From Thermoflexales bacterium (GTDB taxonomy: Bacteria; Chloroflexota; Anaerolineae; B4-G1; SLSP01): a stretch of DNA of 42,192 nucleotides. Of this stretch, positions 18,019-30,912 are shown piece by piece; within the stretch, counting starts at the first letter, position 1; each line of letters opens with the position of its first letter. A program made the translations under genes and the position numbers. Below the pieces are notes generated by a model, which was given only the letters and a program-made list of their open reading frames with translations, was not told the origin of the DNA and made no database searches. The DNA lies in NCBI GenBank assembly GCA_007125545.1, contig SLDA01000578.1:1-42192 (forward strand), in the 5' to 3' direction.

Positions 18019-18050
18019 AAAAAAAGGGCACCTTCCACACGAGGTGTCCC
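18019..18050 (-). terminator. Rho-independent terminator, expression platform of the riboswitch
   Basis: On the minus strand GGGACACCT (18042-18050) pairs with AGGTGCCC (18026-18033), with one bulged A, and is followed directly by seven T (18019-18025). It lies between the riboswitch aptamer and the ABC gene, so it would stop the transcript before the gene when formed. In the known ydaO class, ligand binding favours termination. Confidence 0.88.
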
Positions 18051-18051
18051 T

Positions 18052-18215
18052 CTTCCACGCCTGCGAGGTTAGCTGTCGGGCTCGGGCGGAAGAAGCTCGC
18101 CCTACGTACCTGTCAGAACACGCGTGTTCTGACCCGATCACGATTCGCCCCTTGGTTGGTTCCCCCACTGCTGCACACGAACTGAGTGGGTGTGCAGTCA
18201 TTAGGCGCTGATTCA
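18052..18215 (-). promoter_or_regulatory. c-di-AMP riboswitch (ydaO/yuaA class)
   Basis: The leader contains the conserved blocks of the ydaO/yuaA aptamer in order (minus strand): GCGCCTAAT (18200-18208), GTGGGGGAACCAA (within about 18154-18168), GGGGCGAATC (18142-18151), and the hallmark CCCGACAGCTAACCTCG followed by CAGGCGT (18057-18080). A variable arm between them is a perfect 22-base palindrome (18112-18133). I first considered a T-box, but these blocks match the c-di-AMP class instead. c-di-AMP is a signal for osmotic, potassium and cell-wall state, and known targets include K+ and osmolyte transporters. Here it would control an ABC transporter and a DUF1854 protein through the terminator that follows. 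Confidence 0.92.
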
Positions 18216-18247
18216 AATACCGCTATTCACTTGTCCCTACACGGATT

Positions 18248-26125: not shown

Positions 26126-27334
26126 ATGTATCCGCTCTCGTTGGAGCTTGTCGACTTCCTGCTCAGCCCGCGGGCAGCGGAGGCACTGGCTCGGCTAAGT
26201 GCAGAGGATCTGCGCGAGGCGAACACACTGGAGCTGGTCACGCGACTGCGAAGGCAGTTTTCTCGGCCCGAGGCTGCCGTGCTGCTGGATCAGGCGCGAT
26301 TGCGGCGCAAAGCCCAGGGTAAGTTCGCGCAGGCCGACCATCTTTTCTTCACCGACGAAGCGCTGCAACAGGCCACCGGCCCGGCGTGCGCGGAGTACCG
26401 GGCGCACAGCTTCCGGCGGTATGCACGCGTCGCCGACCTGGGTTGCGGTATCGGAGGTGACACTTTAGCGTTAGCGAGGGTCGTGCCCCACGTCGTTGCG
26501 GTGGAGTTGGATCCTGTGCGGGCCCGCTTGGCTGCGGCCAATGTGGCAGTGGCAGGACTAACGGATCGTGTAGACATTGTCTGTGGCGACTGGACGCGGA
26601 TGGTCTTGGATGTCGAGGCCGCTTTTGTCGACCCGGCGCGACGCACCGTGCAGGGTCGCAGGGTCTTTCGCCTGGCGGATATGACACCGTCCATCGTGGA
26701 CGTACTGGAACTTGTGGCACGTCTCCCGGATGTCGCCGTCAAGGTGGCGCCCGGTGTCGACCACGCCGAGATACCGGCCCAGGCTCGGCTAGCGTTCATC
26801 TCAGAGCGGGGAAACATGAAGGAAGCGGCGCTCTATTTTGGCGAGCTTCGCCCGGCTGCACCGAGACAAGCTGTGCTGCTGCCGGGGCCGCATATTCTGG
26901 AGGGAGGGCCCGATGCACCGGAGGCTCCGGTCCGCGAGCCTGATACCTTCCTGTACGAGCCCGATCCTGCAGTCCTGCGGGCGTCGCTGGTGACGGATCT
27001 GGCTGCGCGGATCGGCGCGGCGCAGCTTGACGCGACGATTGCATACTTGACCAGCGCAACCTCGATAGAGACGCCCTTTGCTCGACGGTGGCAGGTCGTG
27101 CGCCATGGGAGGTTCAATCTCAAAGAATTGAACCGGTGGCTGCGCGAGCTTAACGTGGGTCATGTGGTGATCAAGAAGCGGGGATCGCCTATCGATCCTG
27201 ATTCCTTCCAGCGGCGTCTTAAGTTGATGCCGGGTGGCGAGGCGGCGACAGTTTTCTTTACCCGTGTCAAAACTATACCGTGGATGATCCTGACAACCGG
27301 GGAGGAAGACCAGCTTCAATCGTCTCAAGACTGA
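26126..27334 (+). CDS. THUMP-like class I SAM methyltransferase
   Basis: This 402-residue methyltransferase has an N-terminal helical region (1-95), a SAM-binding Rossmann core with DLGCGIGG (104-111), VAVELDPVR and an FVDPARR motif (167-173), and a C-terminal domain with KKRGSPIDPDSFQRRLK of the THUMP-like type. Related proteins are annotated as RNA-modifying or uncharacterised methyltransferases. The substrate is probably RNA, but this is inferred. It begins three bases after the semialdehyde dehydrogenase stop, so translation is likely coupled, although no metabolic link to pentose oxidation is known. The ribosome site is weak (AGAGGA 14 bases upstream), consistent with coupling. Its 3' end touches the creatininase remnant on the opposite strand. 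Confidence 0.85.
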   Translation: MYPLSLELVDFLLSPRAAEALARLSAEDLREANTLELVTRLRRQFSRPEAAVLLDQARLRRKAQGKFAQADHLFFTDEALQQATGPACAEYRAHSFRRYARVADLGCGIGGDTLALARVVPHVVAVELDPVRARLAAANVAVAGLTDRVDIVCGDWTRMVLDVEAAFVDPARRTVQGRRVFRLADMTPSIVDVLELVARLPDVAVKVAPGVDHAEIPAQARLAFISERGNMKEAALYFGELRPAAPRQAVLLPGPHILEGGPDAPEAPVREPDTFLYEPDPAVLRASLVTDLAARIGAAQLDATIAYLTSATSIETPFARRWQVVRHGRFNLKELNRWLRELNVGHVVIKKRGSPIDPDSFQRRLKLMPGGEAATVFFTRVKTIPWMILTTGEEDQLQSSQD

Positions 27335-27596
27335 TTTGTCGCTGCTCATTACCAGATCGCTGTGTGCGAACTCGCCGCCAGTGCCGGTGGCGCTTGGAAA
27401 GTAGACCGGTGGGTAGACCACGCCGCCGAACTGCTCGGCGGTCTTCACCAGAATCGCGCGTGCCTTTGCCGTCATCTACGTGCCATTCGATCAGTCCGAA
27501 TGGCACGTAGATGACGGCAAAGGCACGCAGAGCAGCTTCTAGCTGGCCTGGAATCAAGTATTGCATCTGATCGTCGCCGGATAAGTGTGGTTCCAT
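27335..27596 (-). pseudogene. Creatininase-family remnant with internal disruption
   Basis: The gene starts with a good ribosome site (AGGAGG) and ATG at 27596, and reads LEAALRAFAVIYVPFGLIEWH, the opening of creatininase-family amidohydrolases. The conserved GPHLPLG-type stretch that should follow is missing. After a perfect inverted repeat the homology resumes in another frame as ARAILVKTAEQFGGVVYPPVYF, then FPSATGTGGEFAHSDLVMSS. The C-terminal two thirds are absent, and the plus-strand methyltransferase gene begins in the 3' flank. Intact members are about 230-260 residues. It lies 8 bases after the sialidase-like gene, so it was probably its operon partner. It is non-functional unless a sequencing artefact made the disruption. 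Confidence 0.78.
27458..27528. repeat. Perfect 32-bp inverted repeat with 7-base spacer
   Basis: Arms 27458-27489 and 27497-27528 are exact reverse complements over 32 bases around the spacer ATCAGTC. It lies inside the creatininase remnant, where one arm encodes the native segment (RAFAVIYVPFG region) and the other is its inverted copy in place of the expected downstream codons. It is too long to be chance. Confidence 0.9.
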
Positions 27597-27604
27597 ACGC
27601 CTCC

Positions 27605-28672
27605 TCAGGCGTACAGTGCGGCAATTGGAACTCGCGTGATCTGTAGCGTGTTCAGGCCTTTATTGTCGCGGCTGTCGCCCGCGCAGTGGGCCAACAGCAC
27701 GTGGTCGCCGGCAAAGGCGATAGCTGTATAACAATACCAGCCGTTAGGATCGTCCTCCAGAGGCTGTGCCCGGCTCCAACTCTCTCCCTCGTCGTGCGAG
27801 AGTGCAACCGTGAGGGGGGTGCGCTTCCCCGCGAGCTCCTCTGGGATGCATTCGTGGTTGTTCCATACCATAAGGAGATCCCCGGTTGTCGGTATCCGCT
27901 TGATCGACGCCGGCGAGCAGGGGGACTGAATAGCGGATGCGCGCAAGGGCGACCACGACATACCCTCATCGCTGGAGTAGGCCACGTACTGGCTCCCCGC
28001 ATCGGTGCGGCAGTAGATCATCAGCCTGCCGTCGCGCAGCGCGACCACGCCCGGTTCCTGGACCATGACGGGATCACCGTTGCTCTGCGCCTCGGTAAGC
28101 ACCTCGTTACTACGTTGCCACGTCTTCCCTGCGTCGTCGGAGAGATAGCAGGCGATCTCGCCGTAAGGGGTGAAGAGCGGTTCCGGCATGCCGCGGGAAT
28201 GCAGGGCTACGGGCACCACCAACCGTCCGCCGGAGAGCTGAATCACACGGTCATTGTTGACCACATAGTAGCCCATCTCCCGAAGTGGTATGATCTCAAT
28301 CGGGTCGGACCAGGTCTCAGCTTCGTCACTCGAGAAGCGAAGATAGGGGCGGCAGTCGCTTAAGGAGTGCTTGCGCAGGTAGACGAGCGCGATCCGCCCA
28401 TCGAGCAGTCTTAGGAGGGAGACCGACATCACGTTCATCTCTCCCTCGTTCAGCAGAATGACCATATCTTCCCGCGACCATGTAGTCCCATCATCCTCAG
28501 AGACCCGCCCGGCGAGGTGCGCGCCGGCATGATCGCTATCACCGCTGTCGAAATGCGTGTAGGCGAAGAGCCAGCGCCCATCTGCGAGTTGAACGAAATC
28601 CCCCTCGCTATTCCGGGGGTTACCGGGCACCGGAGTGAGACGCAGCACTCGTGAGATCGAATTCTCGACCAT
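27605..28672 (-). CDS. Sialidase-like (BNR/Asp-box) six-bladed propeller protein
   Basis: This 355-residue beta-propeller of the sialidase superfamily has no signal peptide. Asp boxes are visible as SEDDGTTW, SSDEAETW, SDDAGKTW, SSDEGMSW and SHDEGESW. They mark propeller blades but are not themselves catalytic. The early NPRNSEGDF and later RTDAG segments may supply the arginines that bind a carboxylate in sialidases, but I cannot confirm the full triad. Such bacterial proteins are often annotated exo-alpha-sialidase, and many act on other acid sugars or are unknown. The ATG at 28672 has GGGAGG close before it; the in-frame ATG at 28693 has none. A creatininase remnant follows 8 bases later. 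Confidence 0.85.
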   Translation of the reverse strand: MVENSISRVLRLTPVPGNPRNSEGDFVQLADGRWLFAYTHFDSGDSDHAGAHLAGRVSEDDGTTWSREDMVILLNEGEMNVMSVSLLRLLDGRIALVYLRKHSLSDCRPYLRFSSDEAETWSDPIEIIPLREMGYYVVNNDRVIQLSGGRLVVPVALHSRGMPEPLFTPYGEIACYLSDDAGKTWQRSNEVLTEAQSNGDPVMVQEPGVVALRDGRLMIYCRTDAGSQYVAYSSDEGMSWSPLRASAIQSPCSPASIKRIPTTGDLLMVWNNHECIPEELAGKRTPLTVALSHDEGESWSRAQPLEDDPNGWYCYTAIAFAGDHVLLAHCAGDSRDNKGLNTLQITRVPIAALYA

Positions 28673-28880
28673 AAAGCCTCCCTTGATCAACATATGCTAT
28701 GCTCAAGTCTAACCTGCCCTTAGGGGTTGGCAAGCCCCAAAGCGTACAGAATCTGAGGTTCGGCTGCAACGTTAGCTGTTCGACGGGATGCTTGTGACCC
28801 GCGCCGATGATAGGGGTTGCATAGGGGCCAACTCCGTTACGCTAGGCATAGGTGGTCAGCATAAGAGGTTTGTATGCCGA

Positions 28881-28968: not shown

Positions 28969-29772
28969 ATGATAATAGATTCGTTCCTGACGATCTCTAT
29001 GTTCATCGAGCAAGTGCGTGCGCTGGGCGTCGAGCCCGGCATGACGCTCGTCGTTCACAGCTCCTTGAGTTCACTCGGCTTTATGGTGGGTGGGGCGCCG
29101 GCGGTAATTCTGGCTCTGGAGGAGGTTCTCGGGGAGCAGGGCACGTTGGCGATGCCAACTCACAGTGGCGATCTGACGGACCCGGCGGGATGGCAAAATC
29201 CGCCTGTTCCCGAAGACTGGCACGTGACCATCCGTGAGTCTATGCCCGCGTTCCGGACCGATCTGACGCCGTCCGAAGGTGTGGGCATTATCCCTGAGTC
29301 CTTTCGCAAGCAGGATGGCACGTTGCGCTCGTACCACCCCTTCGTCTCCTGGGCAGCGCGTGGCCCTCACGCGGAGACGATCACCTCAGATCATGCCCTA
29401 AGTATGAGCAGTGGCGAGACCTCGCCTGTAGCTCGCCTCTATGATCTCGCCGCGAAGGTGCTGTTCATCGGCTCAAACTGGGACTGCAACACGAGCTTTC
29501 ACCTGGCGGAGTACAGGAACCGATTCGCAGAGCGCAAGCGGTGCACGCGCGGCGGGCCCGTGCTCACAGATACAGGTAGCACGCGTTGGGTGACCTACGA
29601 CGATATCTACTGGTACGATGCCGACTTTATGGAGATTGGCGCTGCGTTCGAGACGAGCGGAAAGGTGCGGACAGGGCTCATCGGAAAAGCAAACTGTAAG
29701 CTTTTCCCGCAGCGCGATGCGGTGGATTTTGCCGTGAAGTGGATGAACGCGCATCGTTCGCTGGGCGGGTGA
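28969..29772 (+). CDS. Aminoglycoside N3-acetyltransferase (AAC(3)) family protein
   Basis: This 267-residue protein is of the AAC(3)/YokD fold, in which acetyl-CoA is used to acetylate an amine. Family marks are TLVVHSSLSSLG near residues 25-36, GTLAMPTHSGD with the conserved MPT, the SYHPFVSWAARGP segment with the conserved HP, and GSNWDCNTSFHLAEY near the C-terminal third. Length and order match full members. Many environmental members do not give antibiotic resistance, and their native substrates are unknown. The neighbours (sialidase-like and GyrA-like genes) give no clue. SD GAGGGGAG precedes the ATG. Confidence 0.9.
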   Translation: MIIDSFLTISMFIEQVRALGVEPGMTLVVHSSLSSLGFMVGGAPAVILALEEVLGEQGTLAMPTHSGDLTDPAGWQNPPVPEDWHVTIRESMPAFRTDLTPSEGVGIIPESFRKQDGTLRSYHPFVSWAARGPHAETITSDHALSMSSGETSPVARLYDLAAKVLFIGSNWDCNTSFHLAEYRNRFAERKRCTRGGPVLTDTGSTRWVTYDDIYWYDADFMEIGAAFETSGKVRTGLIGKANCKLFPQRDAVDFAVKWMNAHRSLGG

Positions 29773-29880: not shown

Positions 29881-30912
29881 ATGGAGCTTGAGAGACCGGA
29901 TCTAGATGGCGTTGACCCTGAAGTTGTTGCCTATATTGAGGCCTTGGAGGCGGCTGTGGCCGGGGTGACGCGGCGGGAGAGTGCCTCGCGTGCAACAGAG
30001 CCGGAGCTGGACCCCAGCGAACCCCCTACCACGATGAATGTCATCACGGTGAGCCGCGCCGGCGTGGCCAAGCGCACACCGCGTCACCTTTACGCTAGGC
30101 AGCGGCGTGGAGGTATGGGTGTCTTCGACCTCGATATTCCCAAGGAAGATGCACCATCCTTGCTCGCCGTGGCGGATGTGAGCGAGTCGTTGCTACTTTT
30201 TACCAGCCAGGGCCGGGCTTTCCGTTTGCCTGTGGCGAGCATTGTCGAGACCGAAGTACACGGTCGGGGACAACCACTGGGCCTGCCTCTTCCGTGGATG
30301 CCGGGTGAGCACGTGGTGGCCCTGCTGCCTGCCGACGCGGGTAATCAGGTGGCGATTGTCAGCGAGCGGGGACAGGTGCATCGGATCCGCGCCAGCTTTG
30401 TGAGCCAACGGATGGTGCCCGGAGTAAGGTTTCATGATTCCAAATCCGGGGGACCTTTGGTCGCCGCGTGTTGGACCGGGGGCGAAGACGATCTATTTGT
30501 TGTCACGCGCGCCGGGATCGGAATTCGCTTTCCAGAAGAGCGCATCTATGACCCCGGTTCGCTTGGTATCCGTGTTGGGCGTGACGACAGCGTCGTGGCA
30601 ATCGCGTCCGTGAACGAGGAGAGCGCTGTCTTTCTGTTAGGCGCCGACGGTAAGGGCACGCTTCGCCTTATGTCCGGTTTTGCTGCCAACAAACAACCGG
30701 GCGGCAGCGGCAAGGCTGCGATGAAGACAACGGCGTTGGTGGCTGCCGGCGCGGTTCAGCCCGAGGACGACCTTTTTGTCATTTCGCGTCTGAGCAAGAT
30801 CGTGCGCTTTCAGGCCGCCGATATTCCGGCAAAGGAGGGTGTGGTGCAGGGTGTTGTATGTATGGCCCTGCGCGCGGACGCATGTGTTGCCGCGGCGGCA
30901 GGGCGCGTCTAG
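29881..30912 (+). CDS. Stand-alone GyrA C-terminal beta-propeller protein
   Basis: This 343-residue protein consists of about 50 N-terminal residues followed by repeats of the DNA gyrase A/ParC C-terminal propeller, with no catalytic breakage-reunion domain. Each blade shows the pattern of a hydrophobic strand with a GRAFR- or GQVHR-type turn (TSQGRAFRLP, SERGQVHRIR, RAGIGIRFPEE, SRLSKIVRFQ). A GyrA-box-like QRRGGMG lies at 74-80; the canonical box is QRRGGKG, so the last basic residue is changed to Met. In gyrase this domain wraps DNA. A lone copy may bind DNA or a topoisomerase, but no function is established. SD GAGGAG precedes the ATG. Confidence 0.88.
   Translation: MELERPDLDGVDPEVVAYIEALEAAVAGVTRRESASRATEPELDPSEPPTTMNVITVSRAGVAKRTPRHLYARQRRGGMGVFDLDIPKEDAPSLLAVADVSESLLLFTSQGRAFRLPVASIVETEVHGRGQPLGLPLPWMPGEHVVALLPADAGNQVAIVSERGQVHRIRASFVSQRMVPGVRFHDSKSGGPLVAACWTGGEDDLFVVTRAGIGIRFPEERIYDPGSLGIRVGRDDSVVAIASVNEESAVFLLGADGKGTLRLMSGFAANKQPGGSGKAAMKTTALVAAGAVQPEDDLFVISRLSKIVRFQAADIPAKEGVVQGVVCMALRADACVAAAAGRV

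Follow-up and report, generated by a model that had tools for sequence, protein, structure and literature searches.

How does a gene come to carry, in place of conserved codons, a perfect inverted copy of the bases just before them? The question is raised by a fragment of a creatininase-family gene in a 42,192-nucleotide stretch of DNA from a Thermoflexales bacterium (contig SLDA01000578.1), called the window here. A minus-strand ORF (27596-27273) reads as creatininase-like as far as ...YVPFGLIEWH and is out of frame thereafter: its translation gives MEPHLSGDDQMQYLIPGQLEAALRAFAVIYVPFGLIEWH followed by VDDGKGT..., where the inverted copy begins. When the two halves were compared with relatives by tblastn, creatininase homology was picked up again in a different frame, as ARAILVKTAEQFGGVVYPPVYF. 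A preliminary description of this DNA had reported an exact 32-bp inverted repeat in the gene followed by a frame shift and a return of family homology, and so we find it: the two arms, lying 7 nt apart, are 100% complementary over 32 nt each (Table 1), and the homology resumes in another frame where 36 nt have become 16. We consider it about 80% probable that the palindrome was left behind by one short-range template switch; constraint on the gene had probably been lost by then. The palindrome itself, the change from 36 to 16 nt, the collinear flanks and the lack of this palindrome in the relatives are directly seen.

Table 1. Features of the creatininase remnant and its palindrome (positions in the window)
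Feature	Position	Strand	Remarks
5' remnant of creatininase-family (PF02633) gene; the palindrome breaks its frame	27400..27596	-	tblastn of the two halves to L010 and L011
Perfect inverted repeat, 2 x 32 nt, 7-nt loop	27458-27489 + 27497-27528	-	inside the creatininase-family remnant
First (template) arm, in coding direction GCGTGCCTTTGCCGTCATCTACGTGCCATTCG	27497..27528	-	encodes (R)AFAVIYVPF; codons equal family positions 24-33 in relatives
Loop GACTGAT, 7 nt	27490..27496	-	inside ancestral G-L-I codons
Inner half-stem CGAATGGCAC, very probably pre-existing	27480..27489	-	ancestral EWH codons; faces CGTGCCATTCG
Newly copied reverse complement, 22 nt, GTAGATGACGGCAAAGGCACGC	27458..27479	-	
Return junction, ...AAGGCACGC then GCGATTCTGGTG	27457..27458	-	family register regained

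The gene is far from whole. Its intact relatives L010 and L011 belong to PF02633 (91-92 bits, E about 1e-25), while the fragments of the remnant gave no match in a Pfam search, that is, they fall below the curated cut-off of this family; by homology, the remnant is derived from PF02633 and is not an intact member. Clear similarity stops around VYF, near 27400, so that of the gene's 240 or so codons roughly the first third is left and the other two thirds are absent. Four of the 27 columns in which at least 95% of relatives agree are altered. Truncation and these changes make the remnant a pseudogene regardless of the palindrome. Between the end of the homology and the stop of a methyltransferase gene lies an open stretch, SATGTGGEFAHSDLVMSSDKSV (27335-27397, minus strand), for which searches gave no convincing match; the idea that an internal deletion had fused VYF to a more distal part of the gene was rejected on that ground. 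The residues E34, H36 and D45 (relatives' numbering) are what we take to be the metal ligands of the N-terminal half of creatininase. The codons for E and H are retained in the remnant and the segment with D45 is replaced, the conserved G-x-H-L-P-x-G-N-D, which by alignment contains a metal-ligand aspartate of creatininases, being lost.

The ancestral state was reconstructed from relatives. Scanning genome contigs yielded 80 loci with relatives, of which the 75 in which both flanks could be placed were measured (two contigs are in twice under different locus ids). From the EWH codons to the next conserved block there are 36 nt in all 75 and 16 in the window, a net loss of 20 nt that results in the frameshift. 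The palindrome is absent from all 75, whose longest natural perfect stem is one of 10 bp, in L085. Both flanks in the window, the EWH side and the ARAILV side, are collinear with the family, with best DNA identities of 83% and 90%, respectively. The ancestral sequence is thus drawn from relatives that share no more than about 80-90% identity in the flanking DNA and not from a sister strain; a search for a second assembly of the same population found none. Two loci, L107 and L027, carry the same gene, each 100% to the query; the creatininase locus of G049, a genome of the same class as that of the window, appears to be the Anaerolineae locus L027. In the scan, the subfamily of the remnant turned up chiefly in Planctomycetota, Armatimonadota, Poribacteria and related phyla, and a close copy of the gene was present in one of 396 genomes of the window's own class. 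This distribution makes horizontal acquisition of the gene plausible.

Alignment with these relatives allows the loss to be counted, as the preliminary description had proposed. About 42 ancestral nt, from the glycine codon that follows EWH to the conserved AAR GCN CAY codons, were replaced by some 22 copied nt, leaving 20 nt missing. In no relative does the replaced segment exceed 12 of 22 ungapped identities to the copied one. The copied segment agrees with the reverse complement of what lies upstream at 22 of 22 positions, a match that reached at most 11 in 5000 shuffled copies.

The earlier claim that the codons after EWH gave way to an inverted copy of the preceding 32 bases holds as to the replacement and overstates the copying, with no more than about 22 of the 32 bp new: the inner 10-11 bp are accounted for by ordinary family codons. 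The codons CTG ATC GAA TGG CAC stand unchanged in several intact relatives, e.g. L057, L058 and L060, and CTGATCGAATGGCAC is present unaltered in relatives such as these. The inner half-stem thus requires no special event, since its codons occur in intact genes. Together with the upstream codons GTG CCA TTC it can form a stem of 10-11 bp with a predicted energy of -12.9 kcal/mol (DNA parameters), where the mean is -5.1 in 73 relatives and -2.5 across 29-mers taken from the window; L032, L058, L060 and L085 have comparable stems. The stem arises because V-P-F and E-W-H can be encoded by mutually reverse-complementary codons (GTG/CAC, CCA/TGG and TTC/GAA). Judged from the relatives, the inner part of the stem very probably existed before the event.

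The return to the family register can also be placed. In the best register, the copied AAGGCACGC lies opposite the ancestral AAGGCNCAC without gaps, and 7-8 of 9 bases match in the better-matching relatives. Averaged over 63 relatives the match is 6.46 of 9, the highest among the registers tested, whose average is 2.56, and shuffled tails equal it with p = 0.0065. In this register the remnant reads A-R-A-I-L where the family has A-H-A-I-L or A-H-G-I-L, the sole difference being a histidine that is invariant in the 63 relatives. An exact match of GCACGC combined with a 2-nt slip is an alternative return that is inseparable from the ungapped register. Both junctions are thus located at short homologies.

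These features suggest the following course of events. The 3' end of a nascent strand with the coding sequence, at ...CGAATGGCAC(G), would have annealed to CGTGCCATTCG, which lies 7 nt upstream on that strand; the conserved V-P-F-G-x-x-E-W-H all but builds this pairing in. DNA polymerase would then have copied 22 nt of its own new strand in reverse, after which the 3' end would have rejoined the normal template some 42 nt on, at the partial match of the return point. Such a course would yield a perfect 32-bp hairpin, remove 20 nt net, shift the frame and eliminate G-x-H-L-P-x-G-N-D. On the ancestral sequence the switch points have the order 3-2-1-4 of the four-point model; the mirror order 1-4-3-2, starting from the other strand, is formally equivalent. 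The template switch suggested in the preliminary description is thereby supported, resting on the 36-nt spacing in 75 of 75 relatives, short homologies at the junctions, collinear flanks and this order, and the search for the palindrome in relatives, which could have spoken against it, found none in any that was fetched. Priming by a hairpin on the same strand, the direction of synthesis and an origin in the cell rather than in the tube are what we infer.

That last point bears on the most obvious alternative, namely, that amplification or short-read assembly put a chimeric foldback into the contig and that the true gene retains its 36 nt. Multiple displacement amplification (MDA) typically yields foldback chimeras, with inverted priming at complementarities of 2-21 nt (PMC1855051), and the first junction would suit one; the assembly is fragmented (642 contigs, treated as a metagenome-assembled genome). 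The return match, 7-8 of 9 at best, is imperfect, and the version with exact microhomology requires the additional slip of 2 nt. However, an artefact would need two separate junctions, the second regaining the original strand and the family register within 22 nt, whereas amplification chimeras are typically single inverted joins with an intervening deletion (PMC1855051). Nor is a broken reading frame out of place here, as the remnant is already a pseudogene through its truncation and its altered columns. The rarity of the palindrome also tells against an artefact. In a scan of 1.04 Mb of the same genome, window included, which is about a fifth (~20%) of the whole, every other perfect inverted repeat with a loop of up to 60 nt is shorter, and no other foldback of such length in unique sequence was found, so this assembly is not generally prone to foldbacks. 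The runners-up, of 27 and 26 bp, both have one common sequence and point to a repeated element: a perfect hairpin of 26-27 bp, GGTGCATTTCACCGTGGGGGCAAGTC, is present in two copies (L230 6429-6487 and L177 10987-11045) and is probably an interspersed repeat. On balance, an artefact is unlikely.

The order in which changes entered the gene can in part be read from the arms. A proline found in 63 of 63 relatives is alanine in the first arm of the remnant, and the altered base recurs in the second arm. The proline-to-alanine change thus preceded the switch, and the gene had probably lost constraint before the hairpin formed. Another altered conserved column, H to R, falls within the copied sequence and resulted from the event itself. 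The preliminary description had called the switch recent because the arms are perfect. Perfect they are, but the bound is loose, as 0 differences in 22 copied pairs (44 sites) are compatible, at 95%, with a divergence as high as about 0.07 per site; the arms argue only weakly for recency.

The same proline helps to decide whether the inverted arm was copied locally or derives from another copy of the gene in inverse orientation, through recombination between paralogues or ectopic insertion. The genome has other creatininase-family genes (four matches), yet the paralogue on C552 is only 83-88% identical to the arm region over about 34-42 nt, whereas the local arms are identical across 32 nt, the lineage-specific alanine change included. 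On the genome sequence sampled, an origin from a second gene copy is accordingly disfavoured and barely credible.

Could the hairpin instead be an element under selection, serving the upstream sialidase-like gene, for example, as RNA processing site, attenuator or terminator? It lies 3' of that gene on the same strand, and as RNA it folds very stably (-70.2 kcal/mol, z = -12.5). However, a terminator search at the site found no T run and no terminator-like site, an Rfam search of the hairpin returned no family, both arms come from creatininase codons, and neither the hairpin nor its arm has a further copy in the genome sequence examined. The exact arm was also absent from the viral contigs searched, and plasmid records held nothing matching 26900-28700. 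We regard a selected element as very improbable; the hairpin is best read as a scar, with no function indicated.

The sialidase-like gene is present in the congeners G002, G003 and G004, and in G002 and G004 the creatininase is absent from its side, the neighbor being an epimerase-like gene. Close to it in the window is an Antibiotic_NAT (aminoglycoside 3-N-acetyltransferase-like) gene (28969-29772, plus strand), and an ORF similar to this gene, probably a broken copy, lies near the sialidase-like gene of G002 (L019 7247-7837). Elsewhere in the window are a c-di-AMP (ydaO/yuaA) riboswitch (18043-18217, minus strand; 73 bits against a gathering score of 38) and a 343-aa ORF (29881-30912, plus strand) that matches only the C-terminal beta-propeller repeats of DNA gyrase A, without the N-terminal breakage-rejoining domain.

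If the template switch is real, the locus offers a clear natural case from beyond the model bacteria: a single error of replication cost the gene a segment of its active site, created a perfect 32-bp hairpin and left both switch points traceable to within a few bases. The case would also mean that a conserved protein motif can render its own gene prone to fold-back. A stronger proposal is that V-P-F-x-x-x-E-W-H is a built-in hotspot for hairpin-primed template switching, at which creatininase genes would break more often than elsewhere. Most of the relatives fetched have the usual glycine codon after the EWH codons, and no other independent locus among them has an altered follower. When 400 Chloroflexota genomes were screened for genes of this type without that glycine codon, the window was the sole match, a result that supports the template switch and yields no rate because intact copies in those genomes were left uncounted. 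We regard a hotspot of this kind as improbable.

Short-range template switches have been described with the four-point model (PMC7954356, PMC8794818), and the event in the window resembles them in its local reverse-complement copy, its collinear flanks and its order of switch points. The orders 3-2-1-4 and 1-4-3-2 are the majority patterns that give single inverted repeats, and switching on the same strand is possible if point 2 precedes point 1 (PMC7954356), which is the case here. The replacement is an exact reverse complement, and ancestral and derived states can be told apart. The difference is that a bacterial pseudogene is compared here with distant relatives and not between sister genomes, with the ancestral bases inferred. 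In bacteria, the accepted model is one in which a pre-existing inverted repeat primes synthesis and the nascent strand is copied, as in the quasipalindrome-associated mutations of E. coli (Ripley model; thyA hotspot and lacZ reporters; PMC7202029). The window shares with these the priming by an inverted repeat, here a stem of 10-11 bp whose pre-existence is deduced from relatives, and an outcome that is a more perfect palindrome. Unlike in those mutations, the region as a whole was not an imperfect palindrome beforehand, the replaced segment of the relatives being at most 12/22 identical; 22 of the 32 bp of the new arm took the place of non-complementary sequence with a net deletion of 20 nt, and a short stem was extended rather than a long imperfect one corrected. 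MDA foldback chimeras (PMC1855051) are alike in having an inverted join primed by short complementarity, but theirs are single joins with a deletion, whereas the original orientation is regained here within 22 nt. Set beside these systems, the palindrome is a well resolved case of a known type of mutation and calls for no new mechanism.
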